A DNA stretch of 56,163 nt from Anaerolineae bacterium (GTDB lineage: Bacteria > Chloroflexota > Anaerolineae > Anaerolineales > E44-bin32): NCBI GenBank assembly GCA_011174845.1, contig DUEW01000006.1, forward strand, positions 1 through 56,163, written 5' to 3'. Of the stretch, positions 1-38,206 are shown in pieces. Position 1 is the first letter of the stretch. Each line of letters begins with the position of its first letter. Under the pieces are notes generated by a model that was not told the DNA's origin, did no database searches, and was given only the letters and a program-made list of their open reading frames with translations. A program made the position numbers and the translations under genes.

Positions 1-1443
1 TAACTCAACAGCTCCCTGTACACATTTTGACACCGGGCCGGCCATGACCGCTTCCTCATGGCAACCCCCGACCGCCAGGAGATGGCCATCTGGACTGAAG
101 GCCAAGGACGGGACGTTGCCTACATGACCAACCTCCAGGATGTCAATCAGCCGGCGCGTATCGACATCCCACAGGAACACGCCCCCTTTCACACACCGCG
201 TTAGGCCGAAATATTCTTCTTCCAAACAGACGCCGGAAGCTACCAGACCGCCATCCGAGCTGAAGGATAGGCTTTGAACGAAGTTCTGGGGTCCATAAAG
301 AAAACTGTCGAGAGCACCGCTTCGACTGAGTGCATCCAGTAGGCTGCTTCGTGCTTCGATTGTGTCGTCCATACGCACAGCTTCCACGCTGAGCAGTAAC
401 GCCAGGTCTAGCTGCCTATCGAGCTGAATGGCTGCTTGAGCCGCTAGTTGACGCGACAAGGCCACGCGCAACGCTTCTTCCGCCTGCTGGCGACGTAGCT
501 GGGCTTCCTCTTCCGCAGCCACTGCTGTGCTTGCGATGATCGCCTGATCCTCAGCAGCGGTAGCCTGCAGGTTGGCGCGGTCTTCCGCTGCGTTGCGTTC
601 CATAATGCTACGCTCTTGCACTGCATTGGTTTGGATGAGGATTGCGGTAACGACAGCAGCCAGGATGAGCATAACGGAGGCGATGACACCGCCTGCCGTT
701 ATACGCCGCCTACGGTTTTCGTCCCTGCGACCGAATGCCACGTACTCTAACTGGAGTGGTGAGGGTTCGGGATCTTGCCCCACGCTCTCTGAGATCAGAG
801 CTTCAGCTTCTTTAAGGGCTTCACCACGTAGCAGGAAGCTGCTGCTGCGTTCCTGTTGTTCCCAAGTAGCAGCATTACGTTGCAGTTCATTGAGAGCCCG
901 CACACGTTCAATGTCTTGTTCCAGCGCGCTGAGAAGTTCCCGAGTCGGCTTCAGCCAGTCATCGTGTGACTTGAAGGGGATATATTGCACGGCGCTGATG
1001 CGCTGCCAGTTTCGATGGACGAGCTTCTTTAAGTCGCGCTCTGGGATGAAGATGGCCTCCGGAATGAGCTCTTCATCAGGGATGGCATTGATCGCTTGTG
1101 TGATCTCAGCCAGAGCGGAGGCTTCGTCCTCTCCATAAAGCATGATTGGAATTTTGCGCTTGCTGTGTTCAACAGCATGGGCGATTTCGGCGTTGCAGTA
1201 GGGTGAGATCACTGACTGAGGACTGATGATAAAGACGAAGTTATCCGCTGCTTCGATGCCCTGCTCGATCTCATGCCACCATTCAGATCCGGCTGGAATA
1301 CCTCTTAAGGGCACATCACTTTTATCGAACCAGGGTTCCTTTCCGTTAGCGACCAATTCACTCGCGAGCTGTTCGACGAAATCCAGGTTTGATCGCGAGT
1401 AAGAAATGAAGGCATCTGTTGTGGCTAATTCAGTGGTAGACAT
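1..1443 (-). CDS. TIR-coiled-coil-WD40 protein, 3' end outside window
   Basis: The frame stays open for 481 codons from an ATG at 1443 to the window edge, so the C-terminus is missing. Residues 8-130 are a TIR domain: it opens DAFISYSRS and has SPYCNAEIAHA, where E86 is at the place of the NADase glutamate. One membrane helix lies at about 247-270. A charged Ala/Glu-rich coiled coil follows to about 350 and ends SRQLAAQAAIQLDRQLDLAL, a segment typical of TIR-WD40 and STAND-WD40 proteins. The last hundred residues contain WD40 blades (FSSDGG, GVFLWDVDT, FSPDGHLLAVGG). It is the last visible gene of the TIR/SLOG/RyR operon, 221 bp after the previous gene. The likely role is a signalling NADase whose WD40 propeller senses a ligand or partner. 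The domain calls are seen in the sequence and the role is inferred. Confidence 0.9.
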   Translation of the reverse strand, partial: MSTTELATTDAFISYSRSNLDFVEQLASELVANGKEPWFDKSDVPLRGIPAGSEWWHEIEQGIEAADNFVFIISPQSVISPYCNAEIAHAVEHSKRKIPIMLYGEDEASALAEITQAINAIPDEELIPEAIFIPERDLKKLVHRNWQRISAVQYIPFKSHDDWLKPTRELLSALEQDIERVRALNELQRNAATWEQQERSSSFLLRGEALKEAEALISESVGQDPEPSPLQLEYVAFGRRDENRRRRITAGGVIASVMLILAAVVTAILIQTNAVQERSIMERNAAEDRANLQATAAEDQAIIASTAVAAEEEAQLRRQQAEEALRVALSRQLAAQAAIQLDRQLDLALLLSVEAVRMDDTIEARSSLLDALSRSGALDSFLYGPQNFVQSLSFSSDGGLVASGVCLEEEYFGLTRCVKGGVFLWDVDTRRLIDILEVGHVGNVPSLAFSPDGHLLAVGGCHEEAVMAGPVSKCVQGAVEL

Positions 1444-1490
1444 AAGTTCAGATCACCTTGAAATTGAGAAGCTTTCCTGAGAAAGACACG

Positions 1491-1527
1491 ACGCATCACG
1501 CATCACGAATCACGCATTATGCGTCAC
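1491..1527. repeat. short tandem GCATCAC-type repeat in a 221-bp gap
   Basis: The gap 1444-1664 holds a run of imperfect GCATCAC units that ends in a small palindrome (ACGCATTATGCGT). It has no T-tract, so it is not a convincing terminator. Nothing else is recognised in this gap. Confidence 0.4.
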
Positions 1528-1664
1528 AGTGACTCATTGAAGTAATTTGTATATCGATTTCGGATCATCGTTGTATGGATCATGAATCACGTAAGCCTCT
1601 GCTCCCCATGGTTAACGGAAACAATGCAAAGACTCCTGATAGCTTGTGCTCCCATTTATCTTCT

Positions 1665-3470
1665 TTATTCGACCTTGTTCAGGGTTTTGATTCTGATGTT
1701 GGAGTACGTAACACCCGGAGGCTCCTCCCAATATTGAGTTAAACCGATTCTGCCACGGCGGTTAATTTCGTCGGGGATAAACGCGGAGGCTACTTTTTGA
1801 TCATCTATATAGAAGTTAGCTTTGTCTCCAATTATTTCAATTTGAAAGATATGGGTTGGTTCCTGGAAATTAAAATCGCCGTAATTAAGCACTAACCAGT
1901 TTTCACCCTGATGATAAGGTGTATGTTTTTCTATCTTTGCGACTCCATGGCCGTAAGCGAAAAAAAGACATCCATAGGAATAACCAGTACCGTCTCCGTA
2001 TATAATAAATGAACCTTCTACATCTGAAAGAGGACTTGTAACCTCAGCGATTAAGATCAAATCTCCTTCGACAATTTCATTTGACCAGGCAAAAGTATCT
2101 GTTGATAAATCCTCCGCGATAGTCGTGTAGCTGTTCTCCCCCGATTGGCGCCAAAGCGTTTCACTGGGAATATTGAAGGTCAATGTTCGCCACTCGCTCC
2201 AGCCAGAAGAGGTGGAGGGTAGTTCCTCCATCGCAAAGCACTCAAAATCGGCAATTGTTGAAACTTCGAGGGCTTGTCCGGCGATTAAACCAACCTGCAA
2301 AGGATTGATATTCGAGATATGTTGACCGATGATCGTCCAATTACCACCATCCTCGCTGTAGTAACCCGTATACGTTGTTCCCTCACGTCGTAAACGTAGG
2401 TATGCTATTGATGGATTCGTAGTATCAGTCGCGAAACTTTCGATAACATCGCTGATGCTATCGAAATAGATACCATTATCAACACAGGTATCAGGACGAT
2501 CACAATAACTTCTACCAAGCTGCACTACATTTTGGTCATCTTGGTAGACGATCAGTCCGGCGAATTGGTAATTTCTCGTTGGGGTGAAGTGAACCAAAGT
2601 GGCGATCTCAAAATCACCGCTCGGTGCTTCGCGTAATAATACGTTAGTAGGCAGTTCAGGAATAAACCCGTCAACTGTACCGGGTTGTAGCGTGACACGC
2701 CATGAGCCAGGGTTGTCGGTTAAACTCCAATGTGTGGAAACTTCACGAAGGATAGTCCATCCCTCTGCCAATGCATTTTCAAAATCATCACGGAATTGGA
2801 TGGAAGGTACTTCTGTTGGAGCGGTCGTTGGCACAACCGGAACAGGTGTATCCGTTAATTTGGAAATCAATGATTCAGATGCGGATGAGACATCTGAAGG
2901 TGTTGGTGTTGACCGTGTTTGGGATATGGCCAACCATCCAACTCCGCCCACAATCACCACGACTGCGAGAGCGAGTAGAGCTGTCGCCCAGATCGGTAGA
3001 GGCCATCGCTTTTTCGCTAGCGCTTCCATAACGGTCTCGGCCACTGGAGGGGGTTGTTCTTCTGCTCCCACGGACAGTAAAGCCTGAACTGAGTCAGCCA
3101 GTTTTCCTAGATGCCGTTCCAGGGGAGGACTCATGGCATCTAACCAGTGGAGCGATTTGATGTAGTAACGCATCGCGTCTGTAGGCTCGAAGTCTTCGAT
3201 ACGAAAGGGTATGATGGGGGTGCCGTTATCGACGGCTTCTTCTACCTCGCGAAGAACCTGCCCCGACGTGTTGGACCCTTTCGAGAGAACCAGAACAAAG
3301 ACTTTGCAATCGTTGATGGCGTTGACAAGAGCCGCAGCGTACGGCAGACCGGGTGGAACGTCTCGGGGAGCGATCCAGCAACGGATCCTTCTTCCTTCAA
3401 GGGTTGCACAGACAGCGTCAGCAACCACCTTATCCTGCGAAGAGTAGCTTATGAACACATCGTGTGCCAT
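1665..3470 (-). CDS. membrane TIR protein with C-terminal lectin-like domain
   Basis: This 601-residue protein has a strong ribosome site (AAGGAGGTGG) before its ATG. Residues 1-132 are a TIR domain (HDVFISYSSQDK; WIAPRDVPPG; E75 in QVLREVEEA at the catalytic-glutamate position). One membrane helix lies at about 158-182, then a Ser/Thr/Pro linker. From about residue 225 there are two stretches that look like concanavalin/LamG-type beta-sandwiches (for example RDDFENALAEGWTI and YYSEDGGNWTIIG). With one helix, the TIR domain would be cytoplasmic and the sandwich domains outside. It lies 49 bp after the channel-like gene and clearly belongs to that operon. The likely role is an envelope-linked NADase or scaffold. 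The domains are seen; topology and role are inferred. Confidence 0.88.
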   Translation of the reverse strand: MAHDVFISYSSQDKVVADAVCATLEGRRIRCWIAPRDVPPGLPYAAALVNAINDCKVFVLVLSKGSNTSGQVLREVEEAVDNGTPIIPFRIEDFEPTDAMRYYIKSLHWLDAMSPPLERHLGKLADSVQALLSVGAEEQPPPVAETVMEALAKKRWPLPIWATALLALAVVVIVGGVGWLAISQTRSTPTPSDVSSASESLISKLTDTPVPVVPTTAPTEVPSIQFRDDFENALAEGWTILREVSTHWSLTDNPGSWRVTLQPGTVDGFIPELPTNVLLREAPSGDFEIATLVHFTPTRNYQFAGLIVYQDDQNVVQLGRSYCDRPDTCVDNGIYFDSISDVIESFATDTTNPSIAYLRLRREGTTYTGYYSEDGGNWTIIGQHISNINPLQVGLIAGQALEVSTIADFECFAMEELPSTSSGWSEWRTLTFNIPSETLWRQSGENSYTTIAEDLSTDTFAWSNEIVEGDLILIAEVTSPLSDVEGSFIIYGDGTGYSYGCLFFAYGHGVAKIEKHTPYHQGENWLVLNYGDFNFQEPTHIFQIEIIGDKANFYIDDQKVASAFIPDEINRRGRIGLTQYWEEPPGVTYSNIRIKTLNKVE

Positions 3471-3519
3471 GTTCCCCCCACCTCCTTTACCATCTTACTT
3501 CGTTTCGTCAACAATTTCT

Positions 3520-5352
3520 TCACCTAGAGCTGTGTACCTGAAATCCTGCTCGGGATAGGAGCCGGGGCAGATCACGAATGAAATCGCGGTTCTTCTCCTT
3601 TTCGCTTTCTGGCAGATCTGTCCATGAGATGAGTGTGGGGTGTACCTTTCTAGCGTCATCCCTTTCTGATCCATGTCTCCAACCTTCACGACGTAGCTCT
3701 TGACACCAACGTTCGTGCTCCATGCGGGCCATGATTTCAATGTCGTTTTCATTAAACTTAAAATCGACCGCATCCCAATCCCTGAGCGACTCGATCCTGT
3801 GTTCGATCGAACCCAGTTTGACACCCATGTGGTCCGCATAGCGGCGATTAGATTCTTTCCTTTCCTCAGGGAGTTGATCCCAAGGCACCAAGGTGGGATT
3901 GTCCTCGCTCGTAAGGCCTAAAAGGTTTTGTTCTCGAACATAATCTTCATGAACCGCTCGGGCGAACATTTCATGGATCCCGCCAAAGAGCAGCTCGGGT
4001 GTGCAGGTCTTATCCAGCAGTCCATAGGCATGGAGATTGCGGAAGGCACTTTGCTCCTCGAGCGCTTGCCCTAACAGGGAAGCGAGCCCCTGTTCCTCCA
4101 TCATCCGAACAATGATGGGGGTGTCTTGTTCTTTGGTGCGACGGAGGAGTGTTAGACCAATATTCAGACCGAGCGAATCATTATCGAAGCAGACGTAGAT
4201 AATATCGATCGGGCGTCCTTGAGAATCGGCCAAGAAATTGGCTTCATAGAAATCCGGCGATCTCACATCCATCGAGAGGGTTTGGACCTGGCAGCAATCC
4301 GTCAGATGGGGAACCCTCACCTCCAAGGATTTCCATTTTTCGGAGGCTTTCAGGTCAATCATCGTAATTCTCAATGGGTTATTGACGCCCGGGTTCCTTG
4401 TGTGCCAGGCATAGGCAGCCTGAGTCAGGACGCTTTCGCCCATCCGTCCCATTCCAATCAGGAGAATGTGGGGTGCAGGATCGGATTGTCCTCGTTTAGG
4501 ATCGAAGGGAGAAAATTCTTTGAGGAGAAGCTGTGCAGCCCGTTCGAAAACGTTGAAAAGTTCAAGTCTCAGCTGGGTAAAAGTTTCGCCTCCGATCTCA
4601 TTCTCTCGCAGTAAGTCACACAGCTGAGGATCGACAATGTGAATGATGCAGCTCAGTGGATCGCGACTGAGGTTTTTTACCAGATTTTGTGCTTGGACGG
4701 CGATTTCGGCGTTTGTCCCGTCATCGTCGCAAACGGCAAGCAGATATCGTGCCCTGTGGGTCGCAGCTCGATGCAGCACTGCGCGATCTGTGGCATCACC
4801 GATCAGAACGATCGCACCGCGCACCTGAAGCTGCTCGATCCAATCGTTACCCTCATCCAGCTCGATGACCACGACATTTTCACCACATTCGAGAAGACTT
4901 CTGGCGAGTAATAGCCCTTTGCGACTGAGCCCACAAATCACAATGTGATCACGCATGAACCACAAACGAAGCAGTTGAGTCTGTTCACGGAAGAGGAGCG
5001 CCAGCGCTTGAAGTGCCGTGTACGCAGCCAATGCCGGAAGAGCGAACCTGGCAATCTCCAATTCCCACGGGAGTGGTCCGTCAACTGAACCGGATTCCAG
5101 TGTGACAAGCTGCAGGGTCATATAGATCAGATCGAGAGGTGTGGGAGCTTCACCTTGCGAAATTGCTGATTTTTCGAGCCCTAAATACCCCAGGGCGAGG
5201 GCAATGATCCACAAACTACCGATAAAAACCCACCGGTATTCCTTCCACGATCTACTGAAGACCTGAGATGGTAAATCTACTCTTGATATTCGCCGATTTT
5301 TTCTTTTTCTGGCCTCAATTTGCGATTCCTTGTCAGTGGATGGAACCATCAT
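3520..5352 (-). CDS. two-TM TrkA/RCK channel-like protein with two RyR domains
   Basis: This 610-residue protein has two membrane helices (about 41-58 and 99-121) flanking a re-entrant pore-like segment at 70-90. The expected K+ filter TVGYG is replaced by TLESG (84-88). Two tandem RCK/TrkA-N domains follow: HIVICGLSRKG at 136 and HILLIGMGRMG at 295, both with Rossmann glycine motifs. The C-terminus has two RyR (ryanodine-receptor repeat) units, at about 459-510 (PWDQLPEERKESNR) and 536-605 (MEHERWCQELRREGWRHG; DLPESEKEKNRD). Its start overlaps the SLOG stop as ATGA (5349-5352), so the two are translationally coupled. The likely role is a ligand-gated ion channel, opened by a nucleotide bound to the RCK or RyR domains. 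Ion selectivity is unknown. Confidence 0.88.
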   Translation of the reverse strand: MMVPSTDKESQIEARKRKNRRISRVDLPSQVFSRSWKEYRWVFIGSLWIIALALGYLGLEKSAISQGEAPTPLDLIYMTLQLVTLESGSVDGPLPWELEIARFALPALAAYTALQALALLFREQTQLLRLWFMRDHIVICGLSRKGLLLARSLLECGENVVVIELDEGNDWIEQLQVRGAIVLIGDATDRAVLHRAATHRARYLLAVCDDDGTNAEIAVQAQNLVKNLSRDPLSCIIHIVDPQLCDLLRENEIGGETFTQLRLELFNVFERAAQLLLKEFSPFDPKRGQSDPAPHILLIGMGRMGESVLTQAAYAWHTRNPGVNNPLRITMIDLKASEKWKSLEVRVPHLTDCCQVQTLSMDVRSPDFYEANFLADSQGRPIDIIYVCFDNDSLGLNIGLTLLRRTKEQDTPIIVRMMEEQGLASLLGQALEEQSAFRNLHAYGLLDKTCTPELLFGGIHEMFARAVHEDYVREQNLLGLTSEDNPTLVPWDQLPEERKESNRRYADHMGVKLGSIEHRIESLRDWDAVDFKFNENDIEIMARMEHERWCQELRREGWRHGSERDDARKVHPTLISWTDLPESEKEKNRDFIRDLPRLLSRAGFQVHSSR

Positions 5353-5975
5353 TCTTCTCCAGCGATCGATAGGGGGTTCTGCGAAGGAAAGCGCTCGAAA
5401 AAGATTCTATCTGTCCTCTCTTCCTGTTGGACTGCTTCCTTGGTATTCTGGTCGCGTTGAGTGTACCGTATCCAAACGAGAGGTAGATCTCGTTCACGAG
5501 CGAGGCGGATGATGTCTCCAGTGCCTCCTTTTCCTTGAGCGACCTGGCCGTCCCAGATGGCGAATAGTAGATCACAGTGATCGAGGATGTATTTCCCGGC
5601 TGCGGCGTAGGCTTCATCACGTGACGTCGGGTGTGATAATTCGATGATCTTATCTGCCTGATCTAACAAGCGATGGAATTCCTTTTTAGATTCATCTGAA
5701 GAGAAATCTCCTAAATATTTTTCGAGGGGCATGGGCAGGATCGCGGTGAGCTTAGTCCCTTGGTGCCGTAGAAGGCGCTTTGCTATAACCCGATCCGCGC
5801 CTTCTGCGAGCGGGGAGAGCACCGTGAATGTGCGACCGGAGTATGTCTGAAGGATCGTTTCAATGACTTGATCGATGGCTGAGGTGAGTTCTAGCGTCTC
5901 TCTGATCCATCGATGTCCTGTTACACCGATCGTGATTTCTCGCTTTGATGGTTTGGGTTTGCTCATGTTTTCCAT
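5349..5975 (-). CDS. SLOG-family nucleotide-binding protein
   Basis: This 208-residue Rossmann-like protein has SLOG (SMF/DprA-LOG) features: ITIGVTGHRW near the start, LSPLAEGADRVIAKRLL in the middle, and DLLFAIWDGQVAQGKGGTGD with the GGTG phosphate-binding turn, followed by LPLVWI. SLOG domains bind or process nucleotides, and the SLOG domain of Thoeris ThsA binds a cyclic ADP-ribose isomer. Here it is encoded alone between the AAA+/RyR gene (9-bp gap) and the channel gene (ATGA overlap). It may therefore be the soluble receptor for a TIR product or an enzyme that makes a signal. The ATG at 5966 (MSKPKPSK) is an alternative start with a slightly better upstream purine tract. Confidence 0.85.
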   Translation of the reverse strand: MENMSKPKPSKREITIGVTGHRWIRETLELTSAIDQVIETILQTYSGRTFTVLSPLAEGADRVIAKRLLRHQGTKLTAILPMPLEKYLGDFSSDESKKEFHRLLDQADKIIELSHPTSRDEAYAAAGKYILDHCDLLFAIWDGQVAQGKGGTGDIIRLARERDLPLVWIRYTQRDQNTKEAVQQEERTDRIFFERFPSQNPLSIAGEE

Positions 5976-5984
5976 GCAAATGGA

Positions 5985-8636
5985 TCAGGATTTGAGGATG
6001 GCGTACCCAGCTTTGGCCAGGATTTCGGGGATTTGCTGAATCAAAATCCGATCTTTTTCCCTTTCTTCCTCAGGCAGCTCATCCCATTCCACCAAGGCCG
6101 AGTGCAACTTTTGTTCTTTTTCGGTTTTCGGAGAATGTCTCCAGCCGGCATTGACCTTCTCTGTCATCCAGCGTTGATGCTCCAATTCGGCGAGGAATTC
6201 CAGATCATCACCGGGGAAATCGAAGGGCGGTTCATTGCTGCGAGCAGGGACCATGAGATAACCAACGGCTGCGAGTTTGTTGGCGATGTCGCGGACGTTA
6301 TCGCGGTTGGAATCCTTTTCGTTCTCCGGCAGATCCTGGTATGGTTTCAACGAACTGTGCGTTTTCTCGGTCGTGTCCGTTTGGGGTCCGTAATGGAAGC
6401 CCTTCTCCCTCAGCTCCTCGCAGAATATCTCATGCGCTGCTTCAGCGAGTTTCTCGAGGAGAGTTCCCTCCAATTTCATTTGCTGCACGCGCGCAAGGAA
6501 ATCACGACCATCTACATGCAGATTGAGCTGGTCCTCCGGGGGAAGGTTTGAACGCTCAAATGCGGTCGCACCTGCAAGCAAGCTCATGTGAAGGATGGAT
6601 TCCATGGAGCGCACCCCATGTTTGTAACGATTGGTTTCTAGGAACGCTTGCAGGATGCCATGGTCGATGTGGACCCGTCGAACACCCTCCTGCGGGCGAA
6701 TGATTTGAGGGACATTCAGCTCGAAGAGCACGCGCAGGATGATCGCCCTGCGGATGATGAAATAGGGATCAGGGATGGGTTCTCCGGTGCCCTCGTCAAT
6801 GGGGCGAGCTATAGGATTTGGTCCGAGGACGTTCAAGAATCCCTTGAGACGGCTGATGAAGTCCGGCAGCTTCACCGCTCTACGTTCGGTCTCGTCAAGT
6901 TCAGCTCCAAATTCTTCCATGCGATGGCTGGTGCCACCCGCAAATACGAAGATGGCACGCCCGATGGGATGGGTGATTTGTCCTTCCTGGAAAGCACCGT
7001 CTTGCATGGGAGCTAAGAAGTAGCGCAACCAGCCCAGATGTTTATCCCCAAGCGGTGTGTCAAATTCATCCCAAAATACAAGAGGGATTTTCCCAGAAAG
7101 GCCTATATCTCGTACCTGATGGAGAGCACCCAGGAGTTCCTCCGAATGTCCAAATTGGGAGATGTTGAAACTTATGGGCTGAATCTCTCCTGGTCGTGAG
7201 GATTTCGCAATTTGGGTCACACCAAACGATTTTCCTGAGCCTGGAGGCCCAAAAACTGCAATGGAAAGAGGACGTTTGGGTGGACGTTCGCAGAACTCTG
7301 TGATCAGGCTTCGGATGCTGTGTAGCGCCTCGATTTCCCTGCGGTCCACCGTGACTAAGGCACCGAATTTGCCAATCGGTATTCCTTCTAAGGCTGCATC
7401 GATTCCGTCCAGGACGATGCGTTGAGCGACATCGGTTAAAGCTCCAGTGTAGCGATCCTCGAGGATCGTCCAGAAACCCGGCATCACCTGTAAGGAGCCT
7501 GGGTCGGTAGGAGAAAGGATATTCCTAACAGGATCCTGAATAGGGGCCACTGTCAATGGGGTTTCCCCTTCCTCGATCTCGCTGATCACTTTATCGATGG
7601 GAAACCGAAGTTCTGCCGTCTTTGGATCCGAACCTGGATGACCGTAGCCATCCAGGTGGAGCTTTCGCATGGCAGCAATCCCGGACCGGATCCCATTTCC
7701 GAGCTCGGGTTGGGATCGGTTGAGCATCAGTTGACGTATCAAAGAGGTGATCAAACAGGAGGTGTAGCCAAACATGCCTCCAGGATGTTTCCGCTCCCAA
7801 TCTCCCTCCAAGTTGTGTGGATCGAAGAAAAGTAATGCTTTCTTCTCAACGGCCTGAGAATGCGATAGAAGAACCGCGCCCGCTGTATGAAAGGAAACGA
7901 TCACATGCGCGCAGCGAGAGAGGTTGTTCACCCGAGGATTGTGTGTCAACTCCCAATAGATATCTTGCGCGGTACGTTCCCAAGACACCTGACGGCTGAT
8001 TTGCACCTCGGTCTGTCGTAAGTCTGCAATTGTGGTTACGATGATTAGGTTTTTTGCATAGGCTTCAAACAAATGATCCCACAAGGGTCCCTCAGCGACG
8101 GGTTTGGACATCTTGAGGATGACCCAGGGCTTCTGCTCACGGTTCTGGAGGGATTTCGGCCAAAGCGCAGGTCGATCGCGGAATCCCAGACCGGCATCAT
8201 CGAGGACGACAATGTCCACCTCTGTGGGGTCGTCTACCACACGGAGGGTCTGATCCTCCTCGCTGGATTCATCCCACAGACAATGGTCGATCCCCAGATA
8301 TTGTGCCACGCGCCAAACGGTTCGATCGCCGGACTTGAATGGTGACCACAAGGCGTAGGAGTGGTGATAGCGTGGGTCTCCGTGTTGGACGGGATCCATT
8401 GGCGTTGCTGGTTGATAGATCCTATAGCTGATTTGATCCTTGTCTGGCGTGGAGGTGGCGAGGGCTTCGATCAGATCGGCCTGCAAGGCCGCGCCACCGC
8501 GCTGCCACCAGATGCGGGAGCAGCGGTCGATCCGCCACCGTTCCCCGCGTTCGCTTAAATCCCGAGCGAGGTTCCAATCCATCGTGACGTCGCCGGTGAC
8601 GACGATCTTCTTGATATTCTTTTCTTGTGACATCAT
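5985..8636 (-). CDS. PfkB-like / AAA+ ATPase / double RyR protein
   Basis: This 883-residue protein is the first gene of the operon. Residues 10-300 resemble a degenerate PfkB/ribokinase fold: VVTGDVTMDWN at the first strand, GGAALQA, DIVVLDDAGLG and HVIVSFHTAGAVLLS. The catalytic GAGD turn is replaced by GGMFG (286-290), so kinase activity is doubtful. Residues 430-690 are an AAA+ ATPase with Walker A GPPGSGKS (463-470) and Walker B PLVFWDEFD (518-526). Two RyR units end the protein, at about 728-795 (ELREKGFHYG; DLPENEKDSNRD) and 812-880 (AELEHQRWMTEKVNAGWRHS; ELPEEEREKDR). RyR domains shared with the channel suggest that both read the same ligand or bind each other. The PfkB-like assignment is inferred; the AAA+ and RyR calls are clear. 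Confidence 0.85.
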   Translation of the reverse strand: MMSQEKNIKKIVVTGDVTMDWNLARDLSERGERWRIDRCSRIWWQRGGAALQADLIEALATSTPDKDQISYRIYQPATPMDPVQHGDPRYHHSYALWSPFKSGDRTVWRVAQYLGIDHCLWDESSEEDQTLRVVDDPTEVDIVVLDDAGLGFRDRPALWPKSLQNREQKPWVILKMSKPVAEGPLWDHLFEAYAKNLIIVTTIADLRQTEVQISRQVSWERTAQDIYWELTHNPRVNNLSRCAHVIVSFHTAGAVLLSHSQAVEKKALLFFDPHNLEGDWERKHPGGMFGYTSCLITSLIRQLMLNRSQPELGNGIRSGIAAMRKLHLDGYGHPGSDPKTAELRFPIDKVISEIEEGETPLTVAPIQDPVRNILSPTDPGSLQVMPGFWTILEDRYTGALTDVAQRIVLDGIDAALEGIPIGKFGALVTVDRREIEALHSIRSLITEFCERPPKRPLSIAVFGPPGSGKSFGVTQIAKSSRPGEIQPISFNISQFGHSEELLGALHQVRDIGLSGKIPLVFWDEFDTPLGDKHLGWLRYFLAPMQDGAFQEGQITHPIGRAIFVFAGGTSHRMEEFGAELDETERRAVKLPDFISRLKGFLNVLGPNPIARPIDEGTGEPIPDPYFIIRRAIILRVLFELNVPQIIRPQEGVRRVHIDHGILQAFLETNRYKHGVRSMESILHMSLLAGATAFERSNLPPEDQLNLHVDGRDFLARVQQMKLEGTLLEKLAEAAHEIFCEELREKGFHYGPQTDTTEKTHSSLKPYQDLPENEKDSNRDNVRDIANKLAAVGYLMVPARSNEPPFDFPGDDLEFLAELEHQRWMTEKVNAGWRHSPKTEKEQKLHSALVEWDELPEEEREKDRILIQQIPEILAKAGYAILKS

Positions 8637-8881: not shown

Positions 8882-10924
8882 ATGGAGAATCGATACGATA
8901 TCCTCTTCCAACCGGTACGCATTGGCCCTGTGTTAGCCCCGAATCGATTCTATCAAGTGCCCCATTGCAATGGATTGGGGTATCGGATGCCAAGGGCTTT
9001 GGCTGCCATGCGGGGGATCAAGGCCGAGGGTGGATGGGGGGTCGTATGCACGGAAGAGGTGGAGATCCATCACAGCTCCGACCTGATGCCTAATTTAGAA
9101 GGAAGGCTTTGGGGGGATCGCGATATCGCCCCATTGCAGATGATGGTCGAAGCGGTGCATCAGCACGGCACCCTGGCTGGCATCGAGTTGACACACAGCG
9201 GTCATCACGCCCCGAACCTCTATTCCCGCGTCCCCCCGCTTGGGCCCCGATCGATGGGAGTATCCGGTTACCACCCGTGGCAGACTCGGCGTATGGACAA
9301 GGAAGATATTCGCAACTTGCGACGCTGGCATCGGGATGCCGCCCTGAGAGCGAAGCGAGCAGGTTTCGACATCATCTACTGCTATGCCGGTCACAATTTT
9401 TGCTTGGCGATGCACTTCCTATTGCGCCGCTACAACGATCGATCTGACGAATATGGTGGCAGTTTAGAGAATCGAGTGCGGCTCCTACGCGAATTGATCG
9501 AAGATACCAAAGAGGCCGTTGGGGATACCAGCGCTGTAGCAGTGCGTCTGGCCGTGGATGAGCTGATCGGTGAGGACGGCATCACCCATCAGGGCGAGGG
9601 TCACGACATCGTTGCCATGCTGGCCGAACTGCCTGATCTGTGGGATGTCAATATCAGTGACTGGCCTAACGACTCGGTCACATCAAGATTTGAGAAGGAA
9701 GGCTACCAGGAACCCTACATCGCCTTTGTCAAAACGCTCACGAGCAAACCTGTAGTTGGGGTCGGTCGTTACACTTCCCCCGAAAGCATGGTCACGGCTA
9801 TACAGCGTGGTGTGATGGATTTCATCGGCGCCGCCCGGCCTTCGATCGCCGATCCCTTTCTACCGCAAAAAATCAAGCAGGGCCGGACCGAGGATATTCG
9901 TGAATGTATCGGTTGCAATATCTGCGTGACTGGCGATCTACTCTCTGTGCCTATTCGATGCACCCAAAATCCCACGATGGGAGAGGAATGGCGCCGCGAT
10001 TGGCACCCAGAGATCATTACGCCAACGAAGGAACCCAAAGAAGTGCTGGTGGTTGGGGGTGGACCTTCCGGGTTGGAGTGTGCCCGGGCCCTGGGGCAGC
10101 GGGGTTATTCGGTTGTCTTGGTCGAAGCACGAAAAGAGCTTGGCGGACGGGTGGCTTTGGAAGCCAATCTCCCCGGATTGAGTGAATGGCGCCGCGTCAT
10201 CGACTGGCGCCTTACCCAGATTCAAGAGATGGATCAGGTGTCCGTTTATCCTGCGAGCCCGATGAGTGCTAAAGATGTCCAGGAAACAGCGTATGCGCAT
10301 GTGGTGATTGCCACCGGCGCATTGTGGGGCCGAGACGGTGTCGGGCGAACACACTGGCGCCCGATACCCGGATACGATCTTCCAGCCATCTTCACACCGG
10401 ATGATATCTTGGCGGATCGGTTACCGATGGGCCAGGTCCTCGTTTATGACGATGATCATTACTACATGGGGGGCTTGATCGCGGAATTACTTTCAAGTCG
10501 GGGGTGTGTTGTAACCATGGTTACCCCAGCGCCTTTGGTCTCGTACTGGACACAGTACACATTGGAACAAGAACGCATTCAGCGCCGGTTGATGGCGAAG
10601 GGTGTCACTTTGTTCACTCAGCATTCTCTCACCTCGATTCAGCCCGACCGTCTCACCTTGTCCCATACGATTTCTAACTTTGAAACATCTTTACCTTACG
10701 ACGCGGTTGTCTTGGTTGGCGCTCGCGCTCCCAATGACGAACTGTATCTTGCACTCAAGCCTGCCCTCGAGAAGAAGATCATTTCAACTCTGCGAGTGAT
10801 CGGGGATGCGGAAGCTCCCACGATCATTGCGCAAGCGGTTTTTTCTGGCTACCTCGCGGCAACAGAATTTGACAAAACATCTTCGGAAGGTACGCCTTTT
10901 CGGATTGAGTATGTGGAGGTTTAG
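8882..10924 (+). CDS. trimethylamine/histamine dehydrogenase-like iron-sulfur flavoprotein
   Basis: This 680-residue protein follows the TMADH / 2,4-dienoyl-CoA-reductase layout: an old-yellow-enzyme FMN barrel (1-335), a [4Fe-4S] site with C342, C345, C348 and C360, and an FAD/NAD(P)-like module starting VLVVGGGPSGLECARAL at about 388. The motif NRFYQVPHC puts C29 at the position of TMADH Cys30, which bonds FMN covalently. TQNPTMGEEWRRDWHPE is also TMADH-like. Of the TMADH aromatic bowl (Tyr60, Trp264, Trp355), the tryptophan near 261 seems kept, but residues 59 and 352 are Glu and Asp. Asp at the last site recalls histamine dehydrogenase. It probably oxidises a small amine and passes electrons to an ETF or similar acceptor. 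The substrate is unknown, and no electron-transfer flavoprotein is nearby. Confidence 0.88.
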   Translation: MENRYDILFQPVRIGPVLAPNRFYQVPHCNGLGYRMPRALAAMRGIKAEGGWGVVCTEEVEIHHSSDLMPNLEGRLWGDRDIAPLQMMVEAVHQHGTLAGIELTHSGHHAPNLYSRVPPLGPRSMGVSGYHPWQTRRMDKEDIRNLRRWHRDAALRAKRAGFDIIYCYAGHNFCLAMHFLLRRYNDRSDEYGGSLENRVRLLRELIEDTKEAVGDTSAVAVRLAVDELIGEDGITHQGEGHDIVAMLAELPDLWDVNISDWPNDSVTSRFEKEGYQEPYIAFVKTLTSKPVVGVGRYTSPESMVTAIQRGVMDFIGAARPSIADPFLPQKIKQGRTEDIRECIGCNICVTGDLLSVPIRCTQNPTMGEEWRRDWHPEIITPTKEPKEVLVVGGGPSGLECARALGQRGYSVVLVEARKELGGRVALEANLPGLSEWRRVIDWRLTQIQEMDQVSVYPASPMSAKDVQETAYAHVVIATGALWGRDGVGRTHWRPIPGYDLPAIFTPDDILADRLPMGQVLVYDDDHYYMGGLIAELLSSRGCVVTMVTPAPLVSYWTQYTLEQERIQRRLMAKGVTLFTQHSLTSIQPDRLTLSHTISNFETSLPYDAVVLVGARAPNDELYLALKPALEKKIISTLRVIGDAEAPTIIAQAVFSGYLAATEFDKTSSEGTPFRIEYVEV

Positions 10925-12717: not shown

Positions 12718-14262
12718 CTAAACATGTTTTAATAACTGGCAGCAAAAAAGCGCAGCTTTTGCATTGCTCTGGAATACGATCACGCCTGCTTCACGTAGCA
12801 GTCTCTCCTGCAGATCCAATTCCTGTGGATCCTCCTTGGTACCGCAGATCGATGCCACAATCGTCAACTCTCCACCCTGTTGCCGTACCATTTGTTTTGC
12901 TTCTAAGATCGCGTCATACAACTCGCCCACAGGGTCCATCGAAGCGTTAAATCCCAGAATAAAATCGAGCAGTAAAACGGCGACGGACGGATCCCGGCTT
13001 TCGCTCATGATCCGTTGTCTGCGTGTCGTGCCATCGATCATCGGATGGGGTCTTCCCAGCGTGTAGGTCTCATCGCCCATGTCGATCAGCGTATGCTCAG
13101 AACTTCTGTCCGGATCGGCGAGTTTGTAATGGGGATCCAGGGGCGCGTTTGAATGGACCACGATACCGGCCTCACCCAAGATTTGCTGAGATTGGTAGCA
13201 AAAGGTCCCACCAGCAAATAGTCCGCGAAGGAAACGTTGTTCGGGAGCCCAATCTGCGCGAGATTTTGACGCCAATTCACGCTCCTGATGTGTCAGCTCT
13301 ATCCTTATAGCTGTTGGCTTTTCTCCGACATGTTGGATCGCTGCCAGGACCGCATCGTCTATTGTTGTTGTCCAGGTTAGAGCTTCTCCCCCCTCGAAAG
13401 AATCCATACGCGCTCCAAGGAAGCAGCTGACGACAGGTTTACCGCAGAGCTTAAAGCGTGCGATAAGACGCTCAAGTGTTTTTCGCCCTGGTGGTTTTGC
13501 GATGATTGCTATGACCTTCGTTTGAGGGTCGGCCTCAAGCGCATCTAGCGCTTGGAAGCTGGTGATCCCTCCGATCTCATCCGAAAGGTCATGACTGCCA
13601 GTGCCGATGGCATGAGAAATTCCAAAACCGGCATTGTGGATCTGGCATGTAAATTCCTGCAGTCCCGTTCCCGATGGTCCGATCACACCGAACGCTCCCC
13701 TGTTGATGATGTTTGAGAATCCAATCCCGACCCCGCCAAGGATGCTGGTACCGCAATCCGGCCCCATAACTAGCAATTTTTTCTCCGCTGCAAGTTCCTT
13801 GAGCTTACGTTCTTCCTCAACGGGTACATTGCTGCTGAAAATGAATAAGCTCAACCCGGCGTCCAAGGCCTTTCTGGCTTCCCGGAATACGTATTCTCCC
13901 GGGATAGTTAGCACTGCGAGGTTGGCATGGGGTTTCTTGGCAAGACCATCATTGAGGGTGTGAAGAAGGGAGACCAATACTTTCTCTTCGAGTGCAAGTA
14001 AAGCTTGATCCAGCCCTCCTAGGACGGTATCAACAACCTGAGGGGTTTCTGCGATCACCGCGACGATCAGGTCGTTGGGCTTCGCAGTTACGATCTGATC
14101 TCCATAAATTCCGATGTCGGCCAGGAGTTGCTTGTTCTTCTCGCTAGCCATCAGGACCGCCGTCTGTAACACGCCTTTGTTTTGAGAAAGTCGTTTGTTG
14201 ACGCCCATCAGGAAAACAGAATCATAGTATTGGTTCTTTCGAATCACGAACCCGATGGCCAT
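12718..14262 (-). CDS. allF: FdrA/AllF, oxamate carbamoyltransferase subunit
   Basis: This 514-residue protein has succinyl-CoA-synthetase-like Rossmann features: LLVMGPDCGTSILGG, GAFGVIGPSGTGLQEF and HAIGTGSHDLSDEIGG. TLGRPHPMID matches the E. coli FdrA family. AllFGH (formerly FdrA, YlbE, YlbF) make up oxamic transcarbamylase. This enzyme splits oxalurate with phosphate to oxamate and carbamoyl phosphate in anaerobic allantoin use. It lies 39 bp after allG in the ABC-importer operon. It ends earlier than E. coli FdrA; the missing tail is encoded just after, in frame, behind a TAG. No carbamate kinase is in the window. Confidence 0.88.
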   Translation of the reverse strand: MAIGFVIRKNQYYDSVFLMGVNKRLSQNKGVLQTAVLMASEKNKQLLADIGIYGDQIVTAKPNDLIVAVIAETPQVVDTVLGGLDQALLALEEKVLVSLLHTLNDGLAKKPHANLAVLTIPGEYVFREARKALDAGLSLFIFSSNVPVEEERKLKELAAEKKLLVMGPDCGTSILGGVGIGFSNIINRGAFGVIGPSGTGLQEFTCQIHNAGFGISHAIGTGSHDLSDEIGGITSFQALDALEADPQTKVIAIIAKPPGRKTLERLIARFKLCGKPVVSCFLGARMDSFEGGEALTWTTTIDDAVLAAIQHVGEKPTAIRIELTHQERELASKSRADWAPEQRFLRGLFAGGTFCYQSQQILGEAGIVVHSNAPLDPHYKLADPDRSSEHTLIDMGDETYTLGRPHPMIDGTTRRQRIMSESRDPSVAVLLLDFILGFNASMDPVGELYDAILEAKQMVRQQGGELTIVASICGTKEDPQELDLQERLLREAGVIVFQSNAKAALFCCQLLKHV

Positions 14263-14301
14263 TAGAAATCTTCTCCAGGAAGCGGGTGTTCCTTCAAGTT
14301 A

Positions 14302-15552
14302 TTACGTGTTGTATTTCTGACTAAATGCGATCAGTGCTTGCTTGAAGCATTCGATCGGTGCCCGAACTAAACCGGCACCAATAATCGGGTAGCCGGGATC
14401 TTTATGCGCAATCGCCGTATCGATGATGGGACTTACGTTGGTTTGCACGACCTTGCGAATGTCAATCCCCACGGATGTGCCTGCAAATCCGAGCGCTGGC
14501 ATTCGATAGGTAGGGTGTGTGGCGGAGGTGATCTTCCTCATCTCGCGAGTATATTCAAGCGCCTCCTCAGGTGTACCCCCGACGAGAGTCAGAATCCCAG
14601 GTGCCCCACCAATGGTGAAAGCTCCCCAACCGACGGTCTCAGCGATGGCTGAATCACCCATATCGAATCCGGCGTCATCGGCGGAGTAGCCAGGCAGGAA
14701 CAGCCCGTCAACTACTGGCGCCGGAGCAGTAAACCATTCATCTCCAAGGCCGCTGACACGAATCCCGAAATCGGTTCCGTTGCGTGCCATCGCGGTGACA
14801 ATCGTGCTGTACTCGATATCCATAACGGGATCGGTGATCGCTTTGCCACATGCCATCGCCAAGCCCAGGAATAGTAAATTGTGCCCAGCTAAGTACTGCA
14901 GCGTCGGGAGCGCCCGCTCTTTTAGGACATCCGCTTCAGAGATCGCGATAGCCATTCTATTGGCGAACAAGCTCGATGATGCACTATGGCGGTTGTGGAG
15001 CTCATCCCCCATTTGGAGTGCTTGTATGATAATGGGGTTTAACTCCAAACCTCCCATCTTCTGCAGCGCTTCCCGGAGCGTAGGAGCCCAAATGTCTCGC
15101 CAGAGCCTAAGACCGTCTAATGCATCTTTGCTGAATTCGCCAAATTGCTGCCGTCCTTCTACCTGGCGGCAGAATGCCCGGTTGCCAAAGGCTCGGTTTT
15201 CCACAACCCAGACCGGTGCCGAGGGTGAGATGGTGCCTGCCATCGGCCCAACTGCATGGTGGTGATGGTTCGGCTCAAGCCGGATCTCTCCCTTTTCAAG
15301 TTTAGCTCGCGCTTCCTCGGGACCTTCAGCCCAACCCTCGTATATCACCATGCCAATGATGGCGCCTTGTTGCGCGCCACACATGCGTCCCCACTCGATC
15401 GGCGGACCAGAGTGAGTGATCATCTTGTTCTCCAACCCGGGGATCACCTCACCTGCAGGGGCGACGTCAACAAGCACCGGATCACCTGATGTGAGACGGC
15501 GAACAGCCTCTTCATTCGCTTTCTCAATTTTTTGTTTGATATCCATGAGCAC
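14302..15552 (-). CDS. allG: AllG/YlbE, DUF1116 oxamate carbamoyltransferase subunit
   Basis: This 416-residue DUF1116 protein matches E. coli YlbE closely at several places: VSGLGDEWFTAPAPVVDGLF, MGDSAIAETVGWG, IDIRKVVQTNVSPIIDTAIA and GAGLVRAPIECFKQAL. The length equals the family norm (about 420). The start MLMDIKQKIEKANEEA may use the second Met (MDIKQK). It follows allH by 12 bp and precedes allF by 39 bp, the gene set known to give oxamic transcarbamylase activity. The conserved His-rich segment LEPNHHHHAVGPMAG is visible near residue 95. Confidence 0.88.
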   Translation of the reverse strand: MLMDIKQKIEKANEEAVRRLTSGDPVLVDVAPAGEVIPGLENKMITHSGPPIEWGRMCGAQQGAIIGMVIYEGWAEGPEEARAKLEKGEIRLEPNHHHHAVGPMAGTISPSAPVWVVENRAFGNRAFCRQVEGRQQFGEFSKDALDGLRLWRDIWAPTLREALQKMGGLELNPIIIQALQMGDELHNRHSASSSLFANRMAIAISEADVLKERALPTLQYLAGHNLLFLGLAMACGKAITDPVMDIEYSTIVTAMARNGTDFGIRVSGLGDEWFTAPAPVVDGLFLPGYSADDAGFDMGDSAIAETVGWGAFTIGGAPGILTLVGGTPEEALEYTREMRKITSATHPTYRMPALGFAGTSVGIDIRKVVQTNVSPIIDTAIAHKDPGYPIIGAGLVRAPIECFKQALIAFSQKYNT

Positions 15553-15564
15553 TTCCTTCTGGAG

Positions 15565-16551
15565 CTACGATTGGCACGAAACGATGGATCGAACCCTGAA
15601 TGTGTTTTGACTGGCCATGTCAATGGTGATCAACATGCCAGTCAATACACCAGCAAGCAAATCCCATCCTGTCGAGTGGCCAATTTTTATGAGCTTCATT
15701 CCTAGCAAATAGGTGCTTTCCAAACACTCATCCGTCAACAGGGCGTTGATGAACTTGTGAAGTGTTTCTGAGGCATGTCCAGTTGCATGGTCTTTCAGCA
15801 TGGTGAAGCTTATGACATGGGTGCGTGATTTCGCTCTTTCTAAGAATCGAGTCAAATCGGTAGCTCTAACATTGTGAAGTGGGGCGTATGTGTGCTGAAG
15901 GGTCATTACGCAAAACAACAGTCCCCCAATGAAATCGTCGCCCGATGGGGTCAGCCCTTCACCCAGGCCAATTAATTCAGCAGCAGTTTTAAGGATTCGC
16001 GGGAAATCGTGATCGAGACACGCCTTGGATATTTCTTGGATCACTGGCCATGCATATTCCGATACTGCTGTCAGTCTGGGAAATGAGTGCGGTGATGGTT
16101 GATCCTGGATACACTTCAGGAGCTCTGGGATAAAAATACCAAAGCCTTTTGGTGAAGGAAGATTATTAATTAAGGAAAAGATGGCGCCTAGATGCTCTGA
16201 AAGATCGCAAATCGGCAGGTGATCTCCAGGAAACGAAAGAGGTGATCCCCATATGGATGCCCGACTAAAATCAAGAATGAAGTTCGAAACAAGCCCTAAA
16301 TGCTGATCGATCACGGTGAAGGATGAATCAACCGCAACTCTTGGCAAGGGTCCAACGAGATGAATACCGCGTTGATGCATCGGGGTACTCTCAGTTGCCA
16401 ACCAGCAAAGATCATCTTGGGCGTTTATGAGATAGATTGCATTCGAGAATGCCGCAAGCACTCTCCCGTGTGAACCTTGCGTGAGCATACTGCGGGCTTG
16501 TTCACCCATGCGGTGAATTATAAGCACCGGTTTTTTCGAAATGGGTTTCAT
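15565..16551 (-). CDS. allH: AllH/YlbF, DUF2877 oxamate carbamoyltransferase subunit
   Basis: The frame can be read from 16659, but the Met at 16551 (MKPISKKPVLIIHR) is chosen because the longer version would cross the stable stem-loop at 16567-16599. The resulting 328-residue protein has the DUF2877 signature LIGLGEGLTPSGDDFIGGLL. E. coli YlbF is shorter, with about 271 residues. The gene follows the importer lipoprotein and precedes allG by 12 bp. The ribosome site is weak, so it may be translated less than the lipoprotein gene. Catalytic roles of the three subunits are not resolved in the sequence. Confidence 0.82.
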   Translation of the reverse strand: MKPISKKPVLIIHRMGEQARSMLTQGSHGRVLAAFSNAIYLINAQDDLCWLATESTPMHQRGIHLVGPLPRVAVDSSFTVIDQHLGLVSNFILDFSRASIWGSPLSFPGDHLPICDLSEHLGAIFSLINNLPSPKGFGIFIPELLKCIQDQPSPHSFPRLTAVSEYAWPVIQEISKACLDHDFPRILKTAAELIGLGEGLTPSGDDFIGGLLFCVMTLQHTYAPLHNVRATDLTRFLERAKSRTHVISFTMLKDHATGHASETLHKFINALLTDECLESTYLLGMKLIKIGHSTGWDLLAGVLTGMLITIDMASQNTFRVRSIVSCQS

Positions 16552-16566
16552 CCGATTAACATTCAG

Positions 16567-16599
16567 ATCATCGGCAGGAGTATAACTCCTGCCGATGAT
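16567..16599 (-). promoter_or_regulatory. 15-bp intercistronic stem-loop after the binding-protein gene
   Basis: Perfect 15-bp arms (ATCATCGGCAGGAGT / ACTCCTGCCGATGAT) flank a 3-base loop, between the lipoprotein stop and the allH start. No T-run follows on the minus strand, so it looks like an mRNA stabiliser or attenuator. Such a hairpin commonly lets a binding protein be made in excess over downstream genes. Confidence 0.65.
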
Positions 16600-16622
16600 T
16601 TCAAACCATAGATTTGAGAGTG

Positions 16623-17810
16623 CTATTTCGGACTGCCGATGATGCCCTCGACGAACCAATCCACGGAACTCATGAGATCGTCCGTCAAGACTTCACCCTC
16701 GGCTACCACAATATTCCCGTCCTGATCCACAATTGGGCCGGCGAAGACCACAATCGTACCGGCTTCCACTTCGGCACTCACCGCCAGGACTTCATCCTGA
16801 ACCTCTTGGGGTACCTGGGGTCCGAAGGGAGCCATAGCCATACAGCCATCAAACAAGCTGCAGCGTAGGAAGATCGGTTGCCAAGTGCCGTCGACCACTG
16901 TTGATGCAAGCCAGGTCAGTGTGCCACCGAGTGTGTACCCTGTGCCAGAGATCCAATACTCAGGAGCAAACTCTTGGGCATGAAGGGATTGGAAACCAAT
17001 GGAATACACGCCTCGGGATTCGGCGGTCGAAATGATCGTAGTTGGTGAGTCGACATGCATGGTGATGACGTCTGCGCCCTGATTGATGAGGGAGTTCGTC
17101 GCATCGGCTTCCTTGGCGCTGTCTCCCCAGCTAAAAGTGAATGTCACAGTGGTCTCCACATCGGGATTGACCGAGGCTGCACCTAGATGGAATGCGTTGG
17201 CGAAGGTTAATGTCCATCCTAAGGGAAATGCAGCTACAAAACCTAGTTTATTTGTTTCGGTCATCAAACCCGCCGCGACCCCCATGATGTACCACGCGTC
17301 CGGAGGTTCGCCGAAGAAATTGGCGAAGTTCGCACCCATCTCCCAGCCGCCGGCATGCTCGAAGATGACATCTGGGTACTTGTACGATAGTTCAAGAGCT
17401 GGATACTGGTGGTTGAAGGCCGTGGCGATGATCATTCCTGCGCCTTGCTGGATCATGTTTTCCATTGTGGAGGTAGCCCCAGCTTCTTCAGGGACATTTT
17501 CAGCTTCGATGATCTCTACGCACGGAATGTTGTCCTTTATCGCCATGACGCTCTCATGCATGGCTTGGTTGTAGCCTGCGTCGTTGATGGGACCGCCATG
17601 CAGTGCCCCGATGATTAAACAAGGTCCTACTTCGGCGGGTGGCTCGGTTGGTTCAGGAGGCTCGGTTGGCTCAGCAGTCGGAGCCTTTGTCGGCGGGGAA
17701 GTGGGTTCAGGTGGAGCCTCGGTTGGCGTTGCAGCCGGACCGCAAGCAGTAAGCAAAAGCACGGTGGTCATGACGACGGCTACTATGGAATACAGCGATT
17801 TGGTTTTCAT
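16623..17810 (-). CDS. BMP-family ABC transporter substrate-binding lipoprotein
   Basis: This 395-residue protein starts with a lipoprotein signal (lipobox LLTAC, Cys at about 23) and a long Pro/Thr/Glu linker typical of Chloroflexota. The mature part has the BMP/PnrA pattern: LIIGALHGGPINDAGYNQAM, then IIATAFNHQYPALELS and a DVITMHVDSPTT segment. BMP proteins of this transporter class bind nucleosides, purines or related rings outside the membrane. The ribosome site (AGGAGA) is good. It follows the second permease by about 100 bp and precedes the oxamate carbamoyltransferase genes. The ligand may thus be an ureide or nucleobase (inference). Confidence 0.88.
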   Translation of the reverse strand: MKTKSLYSIVAVVMTTVLLLTACGPAATPTEAPPEPTSPPTKAPTAEPTEPPEPTEPPAEVGPCLIIGALHGGPINDAGYNQAMHESVMAIKDNIPCVEIIEAENVPEEAGATSTMENMIQQGAGMIIATAFNHQYPALELSYKYPDVIFEHAGGWEMGANFANFFGEPPDAWYIMGVAAGLMTETNKLGFVAAFPLGWTLTFANAFHLGAASVNPDVETTVTFTFSWGDSAKEADATNSLINQGADVITMHVDSPTTIISTAESRGVYSIGFQSLHAQEFAPEYWISGTGYTLGGTLTWLASTVVDGTWQPIFLRCSLFDGCMAMAPFGPQVPQEVQDEVLAVSAEVEAGTIVVFAGPIVDQDGNIVVAEGEVLTDDLMSSVDWFVEGIIGSPK

Positions 17811-37887: not shown

Positions 37888-38206
37888 GAGAGGCTCCTGT
37901 GATGCTTTTTCGTGTGTCGAATTATCTCTTCAGCTTTCAATTTCCAATAGCTTCGTCATACCAACTTCAGATAACAAATACTGCCTTGATCATTCTTACA
38001 GTACGGTTCCTATTACGTTTCACGATTTACGTTTTCCTCTCCATTTCATCCGATGATTTCTTGATCTCCAGAGCTAAGTCCTGAGGCTCACTGTGCCTTC
38101 AGGCTCATTGCGGCACGAAATTGCATCGTGCTTTAATGCAGTTAGCCTATTCAAGATAACCTTAAGGCAGAATTGAGTACAAAACTGCCGGAAAATTGCC
38201 GAGTTG
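37888..38206. other. 319-bp divergent intergenic region
   Basis: The region separates the RseP-like gene (minus) and the NB-ARC gene (plus). It is AT-rich over 37915-38040 and should hold both promoters. No repeat, RNA gene or clear promoter pair was identified. Confidence 0.4.

Follow-up and report, generated by a model that had tools for sequence, protein, structure and literature searches.

In Thoeris, the TIR protein ThsB is paired with the SIR2-SLOG protein ThsA or with macro-transmembrane (TM) effectors, and phage RyDEP proteins evade this system by cleaving or sequestering its signal (PMC13232231). RyDEP proteins belong to the PF02026/Repeat12 (R12) family: six of eight tested phage members bind 2'cADPR/3'cADPR (cADPR, cyclic ADP-ribose), with nanomolar dissociation constants for two, and one cleaves them (2026 preprint, PMC13232231). 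The RyDEP pocket is formed by H75, W78, H100, and D117, with H75 and D117 as the catalytic dyad (PMC13232231). In human R12, a pseudosymmetric cleft shuts in clamshell fashion around adenine nucleotides and drug, and the R12 of the human ryanodine receptor RyR3 binds ADP/AMP-PCP (PMC12627627). Here we describe five minus-strand genes at the start of a 56,163-nucleotide stretch (the window) of an Anaerolineae metagenome-assembled genome (MAG). The first gene encodes a ribokinase-fold/AAA+/RyR-RyR protein (the hub), the second a SLOG-type protein, and the third an RCK channel that has two TM helices and ends in a pair of RyR repeats; the last two encode TIR proteins with a TM helix and an ectodomain. 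It is very likely that this system exists, recurs, and functions jointly. We give an even chance to its being a TIR-driven nucleotide signaling system, most likely of the immune or conflict type, in which the TIR proteins would make a signal, the R12 modules would read it, and the channel would open.

Architecture of the locus and comparison with described systems

The five proteins contain the following features.

7536..8621, minus strand: hub, N-terminal ribokinase/PfkB-fold domain (residues 6-367; AlphaFold2 [AF2] model and structure matches, no Pfam match)
6492..7316, minus strand: hub, AAA+ ATPase domain (residues 441-715; the family alignment shows Walker A, GPPGSGKS, and Walker B, VFWDEFD)
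6237..6491, minus strand: hub, RyR repeat 1 (H735, F738, H760, N777; PF02026)
5988..6221, minus strand: hub, RyR repeat 2 (H820, W823, H845, D862, the full H-W-H-D; PF02026)
5349..5975, minus strand: probable SLOG-superfamily protein (208 amino acids [aa]; GVTGHR, LAEGADR, and GKGGTG motifs)
4957..5247, minus strand: channel, two TM helices and pore loop, LESGS replacing TVGYG (TM peaks at residues 41 and 103; GsuK/MthK pore alignment)
3985..4953, minus strand: channel, tandem RCK (TrkA_N-type) gating domains (TrkA_N 1e-20; structure matches)
3523..3990, minus strand: channel, C-terminal RyR pair, Repeat12-like (H468, Y471 / H546, W549, H571, N588; PF02026)
3096..3470, minus strand: protein 4, TIR domain (TIR_2 8.8e-20; catalytic-type Glu present)
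2925..2981, minus strand: protein 4, single TM helix (hydropathy 2.65 at residue 164)
2223..2792, minus strand: protein 4, ConA/LamG-like ectodomain (GH43_C2 and DUF1349; 9.1e-17 and 2.7e-13)
1069..1443, minus strand: protein 5, TIR domain with catalytic-type Glu E86 (TIR_2 6.6e-22)
634..690, minus strand: protein 5, single TM helix (hydropathy 2.81 at residue 252)
1..282, minus strand: protein 5, start of a WD40 ectodomain, cut by the contig end (WD40 1.1e-6)

The genes occupy positions 8636-5985 (883 aa), 5975-5349 (208 aa), 5352-3520 (610 aa), 3470-1665 (601 aa), and 1443-<1 (481+ aa, open at the contig start), separated in 5' to 3' gene order by 9 bp, a 4-bp overlap, 49 bp, and 221 bp. Given the first two spacings, genes 1 to 3 look translationally coupled, with genes 4 and 5 more loosely attached. 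Promoter-like sites in the window were no more numerous than in shuffled sequences. The window belongs to a 99.5-kb contig (C190) of a 3.13-Mb MAG that is 81% complete, and because this contig begins at base 1, the fifth gene is truncated and anything that followed it is missing. The genome's third TIR gene (G000:C163:496-855) is at a contig edge and may or may not belong to the missing end of the operon.

A first-pass annotation made from the window sequence had listed five genes here, and each open reading frame (ORF) is present on the minus strand. Its domain calls agree with Pfam, where the AAA protein matches RyR, the channel matches both RyR and TrkA_N, and each TIR protein matches TIR_2, but its list of parts lacked the ribokinase-fold N-terminal domain of the hub, the TM helix and ectodomains of the TIR proteins, and the truncation of the last gene.

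In this locus, as in Thoeris, TIR domains with a catalytic-type Glu have a SLOG-type protein and a putative membrane effector as neighbors, and the signal would be of the ADP-ribose (ADPR) type. It differs in several respects. There is no ThsA, and neither SIR2 nor STALD matched any of the five proteins; the SLOG protein is separate and is not of the STALD family; the receptor role is presumed to fall to the RyR pairs of the AAA hub and the RCK channel; and the TIR proteins are TM anchored and carry ectodomains. The ThsB_TIR profile scored 17.4 bits against protein 5, under its cutoff of 21.2, and did not list protein 4. No CD-NTase (CBASS) was found among the five proteins.

The SLOG-type protein had only weak Pfam matches (DprA/SMF, YpsA, and YAcAr) besides its GxTGHR...LAEGAD...GGT motifs. 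Among 26 members of its family, DprA/SMF matched seven (best, 1.6e-6) and YAcAr SLOG matched seven (0.0011), STALD, the SLOG of Thoeris, matched none, and a family profile gave only chance-level matches to solved structures. The annotation's SLOG assignment is probably right, at the superfamily level only. Elsewhere, relatives of this protein are fused to SLATT or NUDIX domains or to the hub itself. The NUDIX fusions (L068:7561-8706, L069:8319-9407, and L071:8659-9921) lie away from hubs. Their layout resembles the SLOG plus NUDT9H arrangement of TRPM2.

The channel has the two-TM pore and tandem RCK domains of the GsuK type. Its AF2 model (pLDDT, 84.8) matched GsuK in Foldseek (E = 1.9e-12), its gating ring aligned with those of KtrA, DMI1, TrkA, and CASTOR (Z = 21 to 22.5), and human RyR3 Repeat12 structures with ADP/dantrolene were among the Foldseek matches of its C terminus. 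PF02026 covers two stretches each of the channel (7.2e-19; 68.3 bits) and the hub (1.7e-26; 92.7 bits), above the curated cutoff of 27.4 bits. Two TM helices and tandem RCK domains are shared with GsuK and the CASTOR/DMI1-type channels, which are the best fold matches, whereas the LESG-type filter, the extra C-terminal R12, and the hub and SLOG genes in the operon set the window channel apart. The TVGYG filter is absent from it (LESGS) and from all 18 relatives covering the region (LESG-, MEGG-, or HSG-like). With the animal RyR Repeat12, whose pocket binds adenine nucleotides, the shared features are the R12 fold, an aromatic/His pocket, and location on a channel; the channel bodies, however, are unrelated, and the bacterial repeats are C terminal on an RCK channel.

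The AAA+ domain of the hub scored below the Pfam cutoff (17.0 versus 21.2 bits), but its Walker A and B motifs are clear. Sequence library searches, Pfam included, gave no name to the N-terminal domain; its AF2 model (pLDDT, 85.9) matched a sugar kinase in Foldseek (E = 6.9e-10) and, in VIA, a pseudouridine kinase with a Z score of 19.7 (root mean square deviation, 4.1; 292 aligned residues), which places it in the ribokinase/PfkB fold. Within the DTxGAGD kinase motif, GAGD is missing from all 36 hub family members, in which the region reads PGGMxGYTSCL, and for this reason we infer that the domain may be a ligand-binding pseudokinase.

Recurrence of the hub and its exchangeable partners

A second species of the genus (L027) has the same five-gene order, with identities of 88, 67, 81, 79, and 92%, and dN/dS ratios (nonsynonymous to synonymous substitution rates) of 0.07 to 0.23 over all five genes indicate purifying selection. 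Among 121 genomes of the order, PF02026 was found in nine, seven of which carry the AAA-RyR hub (G000, G002, G003, G011, G020, G021, and G112). In six of these seven, SLOG and the RyR channel follow directly downstream; in G020, the hub is at the end of one contig and the SLOG-channel pair at the end of another. The remaining two have a RyR channel without a hub (G057) and a short RyR ORF only (G089). A truncated hub in G004 had been considered as a deletion remnant and was dropped, as a scaffold gap (100 N) lies within the 19-kb stretch.

The three-gene core of hub, SLOG, and channel also recurs in other families and phyla. Scanning one genome per species across 84,980 species, we found 189 AAA-RyR relatives and kept 80 loci, from the Chloroflexota, Acidobacteriota, Chlorobiota, Planctomycetota, Actinomycetota, Bacillota, Bacteroidota, Armatimonadota, Thermodesulfobacteriota, Pseudomonadota, and others, as well as one archaeal MAG. 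Within 10 kb of the hub, at the 78 loci with a detected AAA domain, 41 had SLOG (nine of them fused to the hub), 29 had TIR, and 23 had an RCK channel. Phyla are mixed in the AAA-domain tree, where Chloroflexota requires 11 label changes and the archaeal copy falls among Chloroflexota copies, a pattern that paralogy or misbinning may also produce. No hub was found in viral contigs or phage records.

TIR genes cluster with the RyR genes. Across 43 hub genomes, leaving out the outlier G425 (37 TIR matches), there were 106 TIR matches, 26 of which had a RyR match no more than 10 kb away, against 0.81 expected, with 20 genomes contributing; the Poisson tail of about 5e-30 overstates the certainty, because TIR genes occur in tandem and the genomes are related. 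In G425 itself, one TIR is about 6 kb from a standalone RyR match and none is within 10 kb of its hub. Within the order, TIR is present in eight of nine RyR-positive genomes versus 26 of 112 RyR-negative ones (P = 1.4e-4). Neighborhoods of SLOG, RyR, RCK channel, and TIR are therefore recurrent, which removes the first objection foreseen in the first-pass annotation, that these genes might not recur together. Where it took the five-gene set as its unit, the constant part is the AAA-RyR hub, and the partners vary. That the neighbors were assembled by chance or by mixing of bins, with no joint function, could be suspected of MAG contigs with a truncated last gene, but recurrence in dozens of genomes, with fusions and TIR clustering, has already refuted this, and we give it practically no weight.

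The variable partners include several other putative signal makers and effectors. SLOG-SLATT proteins adjoin hubs at two loci (L082 and, detected by DUF4231, L148). RelA/SpoT-TPR proteins lie beside or near hubs at three (L084:12679-14715, L138:12653-14686, and L085:15251-17785); two have an LSDAT (SLOG) part, the one at L085 ends in a RyR repeat, and two of the trio match the PADLOC candidate PDC-S33. DUF4062-NACHT-WD40/TPR proteins are found in three hub operons (L112:4134-7319, L123:13831-16497, and L146:6110-9166), and DUF4062 has been described as a TIR-like NADase (2026, PMC13174449). On plasmid pA of Methylobacterium sp. FF17 (L174), a member of a cultured genus, the hub is beside a transposase and a 2,082-aa SIR2 family gene. 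The same SLOG family fused to SLATT, and DUF4062-NACHT next to hubs, link the locus to the SLOG-SLATT and DUF4062 (Swarozyc) systems, although none of the described systems, as far as checked, includes the ribokinase-fold/AAA+/R12 hub. A constant reader whose signal makers and membrane effectors are swapped might be expected in conflict-type signaling, directed at phages or other elements.

Two related arrangements were also seen. Short proteins amounting to about one full PF02026 domain (E about 1e-34) are encoded at L135:14516-15007 and G425:C514:8140-8409, one of which adjoins a hub and channel, and at L059:7074-12059, a SLOG-SLATT protein, a standalone RyR ORF, and a TIR-WD40 gene lie together without an AAA hub.

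The RyR repeat pocket and its candidate ligands

Hub repeat 2 has all four residues of the H-W-H-D pocket, and the spacing of H820/W823/H845/D862 is identical to that of H75/W78/H100/D117 in RyDEP; repeat 1 reads H-F-H-N. The window domains thus share family and pocket positions with the phage proteins but are encoded by the host, next to TIR, with an ATPase and a channel as fusion partners. Across 76 hub proteins, repeat 2 keeps H in 74, W in 71, H in 59, and D in 68, and repeat 1 keeps H in 73, F/Y in 72, H in 48, and N in 74. Repeat b of the channel has H in 20 of 20 proteins and W in 18, and its dyad position is occupied by N in 11 and by D in 9; the window channel has H-W-H-N there, with N in place of the catalytic D, and its repeat a is degenerate. 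This conservation supports ligand reading by hub and channel, and we regard it as probable that the R12 modules are nucleotide receptors. The annotation's analogy to cADPR signaling gains from the RyDEP-like spacing of the hub pocket (PMC13232231); we rate a TIR-made ADPR isomer as the ligand at about even.

Since hub repeat 2 retains the full His/Asp dyad, it may also destroy the signal. In a stronger version of this idea, the hub RyR pair would act mainly as an off switch, a sink or glycosidase for the TIR product, and SLOG would be the real receptor, controlling the channel or SLATT effectors. The complete H/W/H/D set with both RyDEP catalytic residues, the D in 68 of 76 proteins, the glycosidase activity of one phage member (PMC13232231), and the fusion of SLOG to SLATT effectors all favor it. 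Other phage members, however, only bind despite this conservation, and repeat b of the channel fits a receptor, because N replaces D in 11 of 20 proteins and the repeat is fused to a gate. We consider this version quite improbable.

Alternatively, the R12 modules could bind ADP, ATP, or NAD, with TIR acting through NAD+ loss alone and the channel opening as the nucleotide balance shifts, so that no cyclic signal would be involved. The binding of ADP/AMP-PCP by human RyR3 R12 (PMC12627627), the ADP and NAD contained in GsuK structures, and the nucleoside/sugar-kinase fold of the hub N terminus are in line with such energy sensing, whereas phage relatives bind 2'/3'cADPR at nanomolar affinity (PMC13232231) and the company of SLOG fits a derived nucleotide. 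On balance, energy sensing seems unlikely, if less so than the off switch.

TIR membrane proteins and the proposed signaling model

Both window TIR domains have the catalytic-type Glu, which is present in 35 of 37 aligned TIRs. Exactly one TM helix was found in 28 of 37 TIR proteins near hubs versus 8 of 21 TIR proteins elsewhere in such genomes (P = 0.010), and the ectodomains of hub-associated TIR proteins include GH43_C2/ConA, WD40, SBP_bac_5, PPC with choline-binding repeats, fn3/CarboxypepD_reg, and LVIVD. Because basic residues lie on the TIR side of the TM helix, we judge the TIR domain to be inside and the ConA-like or WD40 domain outside. The single-pass topology with ectodomains implies that the trigger may be extracellular or at the envelope. 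These features fit an environmental or envelope sensor of Toll-like design, in which TIR-TM-ectodomain proteins would read extracellular glycans or other cues and the TIR-R12-channel chain would tune membrane potential or ion balance without killing. The variety of ectodomains and the excess of single-TM proteins near hubs speak for such a sensor; the SLATT, DUF4062-NACHT, and SIR2 company, the patchy distribution, and the mixed-phylum tree are more typical of conflict systems. We hold it to be a minority possibility, though ahead of the alternatives above.

In the conflict-type signaling model that we favor, the two single-pass TIR receptors, once triggered, would use NAD+ to make a signal of the ADP-ribose type, plausibly a cADPR isomer. 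Hub and channel would bind it in the pseudosymmetric clefts of their RyR pairs (R12 modules), with the SLOG protein as a possible second reader; closure of R12, aided by the AAA ATPase, would open the GsuK-like channel, and the ion flux could lead to growth arrest or cell death. The model of the first-pass annotation, in which TIR makes a signal, SLOG and RyR read it, and the channel depolarizes the membrane, is strengthened by recurrence, by the catalytic-type Glu of the TIR domains, and by the RyR pocket residues and altered by a SLOG that is not the STALD of Thoeris. For the RCK channel as the effector, we put the likelihood somewhat above even, and for an anti-phage role, at evens.

Several points weigh against this model. 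A catalytic Glu alone is insufficient to indicate TIR activity, and the ectodomains point to a cue from outside the cell and not to a phage signal within it. The pocket does not single out cADPR, because its residues are general to PF02026 and human R12 takes ADP/ATP. PADLOC had no match for the hub or the channel, and no defense island was shown around the window. G003 has the core, but TIR was not found in this 76% complete genome, and 22 of the 78 hub loci, many on short contigs, have none of SLOG, TIR, or channel.

Whether and where cADPR acts on ryanodine receptors has long been disputed. With R12 on a channel beside TIR enzymes, host operons allow signal, receptor, and gate to be tested separately in a natural setting. 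We only tentatively suggest, as a rather doubtful proposition, that, in a large prokaryotic immune system, cADPR isomers made by TIR are received on the host side by R12 modules, which here gate the RCK channel directly. If the model were true, it would reveal in bacteria a channel pathway of the cADPR-RyR type that is driven by Toll-like TIR membrane receptors, extend TIR receptors of Toll-like topology to bacteria, and bring into TIR-based signaling an AAA-R12 hub family that is apparently undescribed and has exchangeable partners. The hub was not found as a named system in the libraries or open papers searched, although an earlier description may exist.

Beyond the operon, a 680-aa oxidoreductase gene (8882-10924), of the old-yellow-enzyme type by its sequence, is divergent from the hub and has the same position in L027. 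Genes for a CoA-ligase (FdrA-like), AllG, and AllH at 12718-16659 form a cluster for oxamate carbamoyltransferase (allantoin degradation). An NB-ARC-TPR (STAND-type) protein, possibly another defense or regulatory gene, is encoded at 38204-41068, about 30 kb from the operon.

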